DNA of 64,000 nucleotides. Origin: an uncultured Verrucomicrobiae bacterium. GTDB taxonomy: Bacteria; Verrucomicrobiota; Verrucomicrobiia; JADLBR01; CALLMV01. Below are positions 47,406 through 61,205 of this stretch, one piece after another. Below the pieces are notes generated by a model. That model did not search any database. It saw only the letters and a program-made list of their open reading frames with translations, and was not told the origin of the DNA. The translations under genes and the position numbers were made by a program. The DNA is taken from positions 1 through 64,000 of the forward strand of contig CALLMV010000013.1 of NCBI GenBank assembly GCA_938005615.1, read 5' to 3'. How positions within the stretch are numbered: the first letter of the stretch is position 1; every line of letters starts with the position of its first letter.

Positions 47406-47731
47406 AAATGTTCATCTTGCGGATTGCACGCTTCGAATCAAGGCAACTTTTTGCCTCAAAGTGCGAGGGCAAAAAATCTGAAGAAACACGCTTGGATTCG
47501 TAAAGAGCTAGCCCATAAGCCGCGAAAGCCTGGCTGGCAATTCGAATCGCTTCGCACGCATCGCCTGCAACACGCCCTGTGCGGCCAGTAATGGGAAATG
47601 TCTTTAACTTAAAAATTAGCTCATCAATTCACGTAATTATGCAAAAAGCTTGAAATTGATGTTGTTGACTCTCGACGATTCTAAAGTGGTGCACAACGTT
47701 AAGCCACCCTGGCTTAAACAGATGTACTATC
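47406..47731. other. Gene-poor stretch between dxs and the binding-protein gene, with two hairpins
   Basis: About 325 bp upstream of dxs should hold its promoter. A bulged stem TTTTTGCC...GGCAAAAA (47448-47475) carries T runs on both sides and could terminate in both directions. A perfect 8-bp stem TTAAGCCA-CCC-TGGCTTAA is at 47699-47717, just after the binding-protein stop. The second half shows no ORF. Confidence 0.45.
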
Positions 47732-47836
47732 TCAATCTGTTTCTGAGTTCGAGTACACTATTACCCGGCGGGTGGCGTCCTGTCGGGCGATCTCCGCGCA
47801 TCTCAATCTGTTTCTGAGTTCGAGTACACTATTACC
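47729..47836. repeat. 37-bp direct repeat flanking a 34-bp insert (CRISPR-like unit)
   Basis: Copies at 47729-47765 and 47800-47836 are identical over 37 bp (beginning ATCTCAATCTG and ending CACTATTACC). Positions 47766-47799 form a 34-bp intervening segment of visibly higher G+C. On the minus strand the copy at 47836-47800 reads GNSVLELRNRLR in the binding-protein frame. The second copy, shifted by 71 bp (not a multiple of three), reads in another frame. Removing one repeat plus the insert restores a protein ending in RNRLR directly before TAG. Confidence 0.9.
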
Positions 47837-48709
47837 TATTCTTGATCCAGTGCTCAGAAAGCTCGCTAAATCCACCTCATAGACACTAGCAGACCGAGCG
47901 GCAGAATCAGGAGAGAAGCCAAGTGCATCCAACACAGAATTCAGTCCACCCGCGCGTACCAAGGCATCGCCAGGCATCACAATTAAGTCCGGCTGCATCA
48001 CAACCATTGCTTCACGCGAAAGCGGCTTATAGCCACGAAAACCTTCAACGGCGTTACGCCCCCCTGCTGCTTCTATGACTTCTTGAGCCACAGTTCCCCA
48101 GCCAGCCGCCAGCCAATTCCCCATACCTGGTGGGGACATCAGGAAGAGAACACGCGGCGCTACACCCGCTAAAGGGTCAGTGCGGAGACTTCGCTCTACA
48201 TGCTCTGCTAGTCCCTCTGCCTGGCAAGGACAACCCAGGACACTGGCCACGTGTTTAATCTTCTGCGGCACACTCATGAGACCTTGGGACTCGTCGATGA
48301 TGGCAACAGGCACACCACTGGCTTTCAACTGCTGTATCGCAGCAGGAGGACCACTCAGAGAAGATGCCAGAACAAGTGTAGGTCGTTGCGCAAGTACACC
48401 TTCAGCAGAGAAATTTCTGTAATAACCGACTCGGGGTAGTGTGTCGTAATCCGGAATCGTGGTGCAGGATTCATCGACCGCCACAACACGTGCTCCACAA
48501 TTCAAATCATAAACAATTTCACTCAGGGCCACTCCCAGCACAACGACACGTGAAAGTTTGCCTGTGAAACTTTTTTCCTGCGAGTGCAATTCTTCATTAA
48601 CTTTGCTTTCATCAGCAGGCCTGCAAGCTGCTAAAACAATAGCGGCAATAATTTGGATCGAGCAGCTAGCGTTTTTGAGGGAACTTCTATTTTTGATTTT
48701 GAGAATCAT
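47732..48709 (-). CDS. Iron-complex/heme-type ABC transporter substrate-binding lipoprotein
   Basis: The track start is TTG 48727, but ATG 48709 (MILKIKNRSSLKNASC...) fits a lipoprotein signal with lipobox LAAC. The mature protein shows the helical-backbone binding fold: RVVVLGVALSEIVYDLNCGARVVAVDES, PRVGYYRNFSAEGVLAQRPTLVLAS, and the C-terminal lobe VIEAAGGRNAVEGFRGYKPLSREAMVVMQPDLIVM. It resembles the HmuT/BtuF group. No permease or ATPase gene is adjacent. The last 22 residues (CAEIARQDATRR...) were created by the 71-bp duplication described at 47729. A Fur-box-like site overlaps the start codon. Confidence 0.85.
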   Translation of the reverse strand: MILKIKNRSSLKNASCSIQIIAAIVLAACRPADESKVNEELHSQEKSFTGKLSRVVVLGVALSEIVYDLNCGARVVAVDESCTTIPDYDTLPRVGYYRNFSAEGVLAQRPTLVLASSLSGPPAAIQQLKASGVPVAIIDESQGLMSVPQKIKHVASVLGCPCQAEGLAEHVERSLRTDPLAGVAPRVLFLMSPPGMGNWLAAGWGTVAQEVIEAAGGRNAVEGFRGYKPLSREAMVVMQPDLIVMPGDALVRAGGLNSVLDALGFSPDSAARSASVYEVDLASFLSTGSRIGNSVLELRNRLRCAEIARQDATRRVIVYSNSETD

Positions 48710-48713
48710 TATT
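48695..48713 (-). promoter_or_regulatory. Fur-box-like site over the binding-protein start codon
   Basis: The minus-strand sequence AATAATGATTCTCAAAATC matches the 19-bp Fur consensus GATAATGATAATCATTATC at 14 of 19 positions by hand alignment. It includes the ATG at 48709. It fits iron-dependent repression of an iron- or heme-uptake lipoprotein. Confidence 0.45.
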
Positions 48714-48788
48714 ATTTTATGAAACAACTTCTTTGCAGAATTTCAAGCGTGCCTTAATTGCTTCATGTTAATGCTGCTAAACGCAGGC

Positions 48789-60260: not shown

Positions 60261-60527
60261 TTATGCGCGGGAGCGGCGGGTGCGTGACTGGCGCTTTTCG
60301 CGCGGCTTGGGTGCGGCTTCGGGTGCCACGACTTCAAAGCTGAGTTTTTCTTCGGCAATTTCTTTCAGTGCGACGTCCATGAACGTCATGCGCGGATCCA
60401 CGGGTACCAGAGGGCGGTAGCCCATGCCGAGCTGTTTTACCCGTTGAGAAACCATGTTGACGAGAATCTCTGAACTTTGGACTTTTTCCAACGCGGATTG
60501 GACGAGTTCGGATTTTTGGATGGGCAT
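60261..60527 (-). CDS. rpoZ: RNA polymerase omega subunit
   Basis: This 88-residue protein has the omega-type pattern LVQSALEKVQSSEILVNMVSQRVKQLGMG. An acidic-to-helical segment (MTFMDVALKEIAEEKL) and a basic tail (KPREKRQSRTRRSRA) follow. Omega aids RNA polymerase assembly and, in other phyla, ppGpp response. It is first in rpoZ-smpB. Similarity is clear in the N-terminal half but the gene is divergent, so confidence is slightly below the other housekeeping genes. Confidence 0.88.
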   Translation of the reverse strand: MPIQKSELVQSALEKVQSSEILVNMVSQRVKQLGMGYRPLVPVDPRMTFMDVALKEIAEEKLSFEVVAPEAAPKPREKRQSRTRRSRA

Positions 60528-60600: not shown

Positions 60601-60709
60601 CTGCGACGTTAGGCTCGGGAATTAATCAGAAAAGAAGGAGGGAAACTAGGTGACGAGCCGCCACTCGGAGGGCTGCGACGTTAGGCTCGGGAATTAATCA
60701 GAAAAGAAG
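60601..60709. repeat. 37-bp direct repeat flanking a 35-bp insert (CRISPR-like unit)
   Basis: Identical 37-bp copies occur at 60601-60637 and 60673-60709 (beginning CTGCGACGTTAGG and ending AGAAAAGAAG), separated by 35 bp (60638-60672) of unrelated sequence. Flanking bases differ, so the repeat is exactly 37 bp. The locus lies between the divergent rpoZ and rhodanese genes. Repeat length and spacing nearly equal those at 47729-47836, while the sequences are different. Confidence 0.92.
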
Positions 60710-60764
60710 AGAATCTTGACTCTGTGTCACATTACAATTTGGAACTGTTGTGCTAGTATCTGTC

Positions 60765-61205
60765 ATGATTGTGAATGCAATCCGTGAGTGTGTGTTTTTA
60801 GTGGCGATCTCACTGGTGCCCGCCTTTGTGTGGGGTGTGATGTCTCCGAAGAAACCAATCTGGGACCCCGAAGTGCTTCAGGAAGGGGAGATCCGCTTGG
60901 CAGATGTGCTGGCATCCGGCGAGGATGTGCTGTGGTTAGATGCACGGGGAAATAAGGATTTTCTGGCAGGGCATATTCCCGGCGCGATGCAGTTGAATGA
61001 AGATAATTGGGATGAGTTATTTATGGAGTTTTTACAAAGCGGTCGCTGGACTCCTGGCAAACGCATTGTGGTCTACTGCGGTTCATCTGGGTGCCATGCC
61101 AGTCATTCAGTGGCTGAAAAATTGCGGAAAAACGCCGGCATTCCCAATGTGTGGGTGTTGAAGCACGGCTGGGAAGCTTGGAAAAGACATCAGGATGGTA
61201 AGTAA
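60765..61205 (+). CDS. Rhodanese-like domain protein, membrane anchored
   Basis: The start is ATG 60765 (GTG 60750 is the track start). A signal or anchor helix (REC-VFLVAISLVPAFVWGVM) precedes a rhodanese domain of about 110 residues with WLDARGNKDFLAGHIPGAMQLNEDN. The catalytic loop VVYCGSSGCHASHSVAEKL holds the active Cys, and WEAWKRHQ closes the domain. Sulfur transfer or disulfide-related chemistry on the outer face of the membrane is plausible. The next gene (MauE-like) overlaps its end, suggesting a shared redox function. Confidence 0.88.
   Translation: MIVNAIRECVFLVAISLVPAFVWGVMSPKKPIWDPEVLQEGEIRLADVLASGEDVLWLDARGNKDFLAGHIPGAMQLNEDNWDELFMEFLQSGRWTPGKRIVVYCGSSGCHASHSVAEKLRKNAGIPNVWVLKHGWEAWKRHQDGK

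Follow-up and report, generated by a model that had tools for sequence, protein, structure and literature searches.

Four repeat-insert-repeat units in a draft Verrucomicrobiae genome: probable scars of off-target spacer integration

Introduction

Nivala et al. (2018) reportedly described non-canonical spacer integration, giving 'neo-CRISPR' loci, in Escherichia coli with overexpressed Cas1-Cas2. Genomic integration of this kind is also cited in two later papers (PMC11788318, PMC9456107). The E. coli loci resemble the units described here in having a spacer-sized insert between duplicated genomic DNA outside arrays. They were provoked by overexpression, whereas the present four units lie in the assembly of a natural genome, in which a type I-G-like integrase but no array was found.

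The purified type II-A Cas1-Cas2 of Streptococcus thermophilus integrates off target in vitro and uses a ruler to position the second cut (PMC6895254). There, as here, non-CRISPR DNA is targeted with a weak sequence preference. The in vitro events occurred on plasmids and were likely half-site, while those considered here would be full-site, completed by gap repair, and located in a genome. Adaptation in type I-G systems by a Cas4/1 fusion and Cas2 (PMC10504553) involves the same Cas1 and Cas2 families, and the inserts found here are sized like the spacers of relatives. However, type I-G adaptation uses a 36-bp conserved repeat at a leader; here the target is no leader-repeat, the duplicated 37 bp are arbitrary sequence, and no array was found. 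Ectopic acquisition at CRISPR3 of S. thermophilus (PMC7999890) likewise places a spacer at an unusual position, but at a canonical repeat within an array rather than at unrelated chromosomal loci. The combination of several scars in one natural genome, a type I-G system and no detectable array was not found in the literature searched, which left out most subscription papers.

Repeat-insert-repeat units in the genome

The window analysed is a stretch of 64,000 nucleotides on contig C13 of a draft metagenome-assembled genome (MAG; 1.67 Mb, 75.7% complete, 0.14% contamination), all 51 contigs of which were scanned for exact direct repeats. Four repeat-insert-repeat units were found: two on contig C13, both in the window, and one each on contigs C7 and C5. 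The original prediction covered unit 1 alone; the second unit of the window and the two elsewhere came from the repeat scans. The units and the genes beside them are as follows.

47729..47765, no strand assigned: first 37-bp copy of unit 1, ATCTCAATCTGTTTCTGAGTTCGAGTACACTATTACC, directly beside the native stop codon (TAG) of the minus-strand gene
47766..47799, no strand assigned: spacer-like insert of unit 1, 34 bp, 79% GC
47800..47836, no strand assigned: second 37-bp copy of unit 1, identical to the first
47732..48727, minus strand: Peripla_BP_2 periplasmic binding protein gene with altered 3' end, 331 aa now, 309 aa when the unit is collapsed
60261..60527, minus strand: RNA polymerase omega-like gene beside unit 2 (Rpb6 family, PF01192)
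60601..60637, no strand assigned: first 37-bp copy of unit 2, intergenic, CTGCGACGTTAGGCTCGGGAATTAATCAGAAAAGAAG
60638..60672, no strand assigned: spacer-like insert of unit 2, 35 bp
60673..60709, no strand assigned: second 37-bp copy of unit 2, identical to the first
60750..61205, plus strand: rhodanese-domain gene beside unit 2 (PF00581)
L030:14205 / 14278: unit of contig C7, 37-bp repeats, 36-bp insert
L078:6405 / 6476: unit of contig C5, 37-bp repeats, 34-bp insert

The repeat is exactly 37 bp long in all four units, and the inserts measure 34, 35, 36 and 34 bp. The four repeats are unrelated to one another in sequence, as are the four inserts, whose GC content ranges from 35 to 79%. Within each unit both repeat copies are identical, so the events look recent. 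Chance can be ruled out as the origin of the repeats, given that 37 identical bases recur at four sites.

For unit 1, the original prediction of an exact 37-bp sequence occurring twice around a 34-bp insert was borne out: both copies were located, 71 bp apart from start to start. The insert is far richer in G+C than the repeat (38%), in line with the G+C excess over its surroundings described originally. The 64-bp intergenic sequence at 47524-47587 of the window, about 140 bp from unit 1, is 97% identical to C22:5051-5114.

Apart from a 26/40-bp pair (repeat/gap) on L038, no further pairs of comparable repeat and gap size were found genome-wide, short-period tandem repeats and clusters of dispersed repeats being set aside. 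The L038 pair at 2121/2187 (36 bp, one mismatch) has a spacing of 66 bp, a multiple of three. It resembles a coding tandem repeat and was left out. A mismatch-tolerant genome scan, in which five highly repetitive stretches were skipped, revealed no additional decayed units. A repeat with a 21-bp period (CCTCAATxxCGCGACTT...) is present at three contig ends (L059:15850-16225, L063:1-370 and L107:5546-5830) and perhaps belongs to a gene for a repetitive protein at which the assembly broke off.

Effects on genes

The gene at 47732-48727 matches PF01497 (E 4e-21), and unit 1 overlaps its end, in agreement with the predicted position at the 3' end of a binding-protein gene. Removing the insert and one copy leaves a frame of 309 aa with the C-terminal end GNSVLELRNRLR; the predicted gain of 22 residues is thus exact. 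Alignments with homologues stop at about residue 308-310 of the 331-aa frame, which fits 309 aa as the native length.

The unit of contig C7 splits a pseudopilin-like gene by a frameshift; the gene encodes 201 aa at present and 332 aa when collapsed. It has no Pfam match, and its label rests on an N-terminal methylation-like motif. In contig C5 the unit changes the final residues of ribosomal protein S2 from ESSSELVS to ESWKQE. Collapsing the units gives longer or homologue-like frames for the pseudopilin-like gene, the S2 tail and the binding protein. Two units therefore lie at gene ends, one is intergenic and one disrupts a gene. That three of the four occupy low-damage places is expected after selection.

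Origin of the inserts

None of the four inserts matches its own genome above the level of shuffled sequence. For unit 1, this check had been proposed from the start, and the finding that its insert occurs nowhere else means that it is neither a local copy nor a member of a repeat family. No match was found in viral contigs, searched with two 20-21-mers per insert, or in phage and plasmid collections, where the weak alignments have E values of about 0.2 or more. Spacers of uncultured hosts often have no matches. The absence of protospacer matches is therefore neutral evidence, since such matches are commonly missing for these hosts.

The same data bear on two other origins. Repair or replication slippage with template switching produces small duplications with filler DNA, and short direct repeats with insertions are a known outcome of such events. 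This process would, however, give repeats and fillers of variable length rather than 37 bp four times with inserts of 34-36 bp, and its filler is usually templated locally, while the genome holds no template for the inserts. Slippage is accordingly considered very improbable. Insertion combined with duplication is also the signature of transposition, so that a small mobile element with a 37-bp target-site duplication might be proposed. Yet the four inserts have no sequence in common and, at 34-36 bp, are too short for an element, and a 37-bp target duplication is not known to us from any insertion sequence. The chance that a mobile element made the units is regarded as almost negligible.

Adaptation genes and the missing array

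The genome contains a single cas1 match and one cas2.

C6:14-466: cas1, fragment at the contig edge, C-terminal 202 aa
L005:1468-1758 (contig C6): cas2, best PADLOC model Cas2g

The cas1 match sits right at the end of contig C6, whose tetranucleotide profile fits this genome but not the other Verrucomicrobia sampled. The best models for the 202-aa Cas1 fragment are the Cas4g/Cas1g fusion and Cas1g, i.e. type I-G. The assignment to this type is made on the C-terminus of Cas1 and on Cas2, both of which match I-G models; the contig edge at cas1 keeps any Cas4 fusion and the effector genes of such a system (Csb1, Csb2, Csx17, Cas3) out of view. The catalytic E, H and D motifs of Cas1 presumably fall in the retained fragment.

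No canonical CRISPR array was found downstream of cas2 or elsewhere in the assembly, although one could lie in the quarter of the genome that the draft lacks. Of the adaptation genes and array that the original prediction had proposed to look for, the former are thus present and the latter is absent from the assembly. No similarity to a leader remains, and a profile search of the genome revealed no convincing remnant of a canonical repeat. The best match of that search, L061:13582, scored 22 bits, whereas real repeats score 27-44; it encodes an apparent P-type ATPase motif and was rejected. The units themselves differ from a canonical array in having two copies only and a different repeat at each site.

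Two further features of this locus were observed. Between cas1 and cas2 (L005:773-1413), a small gene without a Pfam match and a PIN-domain gene form an antitoxin-toxin-like pair; a search of 35 related cas loci gave no relative of either. Just after cas2 (L005:1906-2430, contig C6), where relatives carry their CRISPR array, there is a repeated block of about 240 bp, the copies being 80% identical. Parts of it recur at L038, L127, L070 and L086, and it has inverted-repeat-like ends CATTTCGAG...GAAATGACA. This block may be a trace of the event by which the array was lost.

Comparison with relatives and controls

The comparison set comprised 80 loci with a related Cas1, covering 0.97 Mb around the cas1 genes. 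In verrucomicrobial relatives, whose Cas1 is 68-82% identical, arrays lie shortly after cas2 and have 36-bp repeats, typically GCCGCAGTCGCCGCGATTCCAGCGAGCTTGAGGCGG, with spacers mostly of 33-37 bp (mode 34-35). The dimensions of the units thus fit this integrase family to within one base, 37 bp versus the 36 bp of relatives.

The integrase need not have been the one encoded on contig C6. Off-target integration could also be the work of another Cas1-Cas2, encoded by a second system in the part of the genome absent from the draft or brought in earlier by a plasmid or phage; this would be a sub-case of the explanation preferred below. The 75.7% completeness leaves room for it, and 37 bp differs by one from the repeat of the relatives. 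Nevertheless, only one cas1 was found, and the spacer sizes of its relatives match the inserts, which makes a second integrase unlikely.

Nearly all isolated pairs of unit size around the 80 related cas1 genes are arrays cut by contig ends. An independent parallel is L169, an archaeal (Thermoplasmata) MAG with a related Cas1: inside its cas4-cas1, 38 bp of the coding sequence are repeated on either side of a 33-bp insert. The frame is broken there, with 359 residues versus 564 when collapsed. The junction at L139:10595-10806, from a Puniceicoccales MAG, has a 28-bp duplication and a 45-bp insert over the cas1 stop and cas2 start. Its geometry differs and it was not counted, but it is possibly another abnormal integration. 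In the closest relative (L131/L212, G065:C225) the cas4-cas1 frame contains an internal TGA and cas2 matches in two separate pieces; the adaptation genes of that relative may be decaying.

As a control, a relative with an intact array (G287), also a draft, showed no such units in 707 kb, compared with 1.7 expected at the rate of the present genome, a difference that is not significant. Its lack of units implies that they are no routine product of draft assembly. This result bears on the idea that the 37-bp duplications are false, made by an assembler or in gap closing around short pieces of foreign sequence; 37 is a possible k-mer size. The units are read from a draft assembly in 51 contigs, and equal length at four sites could stem from a fixed software parameter. 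On the other hand, the inserts are real sequence of the spacer size of the integrase family, match nothing else in the assembly and range widely in GC content, and the similar 38-bp unit of L169 comes from a MAG of another study. An assembly artefact is therefore judged quite improbable. The genomes searched, in which an empty site was sought, included no member of the same genus or family, and in a protein search for an empty site the homologues were too distant; the collapsed frames are consistent with such a site.

Probable off-target integration and possible site preference

The units are very probably scars of off-target spacer integration by the host's own type I-G-like Cas4/1-Cas2. We infer this agent from the geometry and recurrence of the units, together with the cas genes and the arrays of relatives. 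For unit 1, the ectopic spacer integration originally proposed gains support from the presence of cas1 and cas2, the array sizes of relatives, the unique insert and the recurrence at four sites. In the order of events suggested, Cas4/1-Cas2 would join a prespacer of about 35 bp to each strand of ordinary chromosomal DNA at points 37 bp from one another. Repair of the gaps would then duplicate the 37 bp lying between these joints, so that repeat-spacer-repeat results. At least four such events would have occurred in the lineage, at unrelated places. Loss or inaccessibility of the normal target may favour stray integration, as suggested by the lack of an array after cas2 or elsewhere.

The points against this explanation are the 37 bp versus 36 bp, the cas1 fragment at a contig edge, the lack of a protospacer source, the non-significant resemblance of the four sites to the repeats of relatives and the 75.7%-complete draft. 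The one-base excess is the main loose end: the host's own repeat may be 37 bp, or off-target complexes may cut one base wider.

The target sites may share a weak sequence preference. Read on one strand, all four targets contain CTCG, its first letter at position 13 or 14 of the 37. In a post hoc statistic, random sets of four genomic 37-mers shared any 4-mer as tightly in 1 of 5000 cases, and in 0 of 1500 on repetition. The unit of L169 lacks the CTCG motif, and the similarity of the target sites to the repeats of relatives is not significant (p about 0.24). By analogy with the type II system (PMC6895254), the position of CTCG would fit a ruler element for the second cut.

As a CRISPR-like unit, unit 1 corresponds to the original description in structure, but its non-canonical repeat gives no reason to expect working crRNA. 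Since the repeats are unlike canonical ones, the units probably serve no immune function and are by-products.

Biological significance

How often Cas1-Cas2 misfires in nature, what limits this and whether it can give rise to new arrays have so far been addressed mainly in vitro and by overexpression. The four scars of this small draft genome provide a duplication length, a range of insert sizes and a candidate site motif. They also give a genome-wide signature, namely identical 36-38-bp pairs about 35 bp apart in non-array sequence, which can be counted against cas1 and array status.

The scars suggest that, in nature, the enzyme writing immune memory can be a source of mutations in the host genome too. 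They further suggest a fitness cost of active adaptation genes through gene disruption, including the self-inflicted damage in cas4-cas1 of L169. More tentatively, and with somewhat more doubt than confidence, the adaptation module may have outlived its array and turned into a mutator of the chromosome, with prespacers entering at many sites, always at a spacing of 37 bp and with a slight bias towards CTCG. If true, new CRISPR loci could arise naturally along this path and genes be disrupted by it, perhaps commonly where cas1-cas2 are kept without an array.
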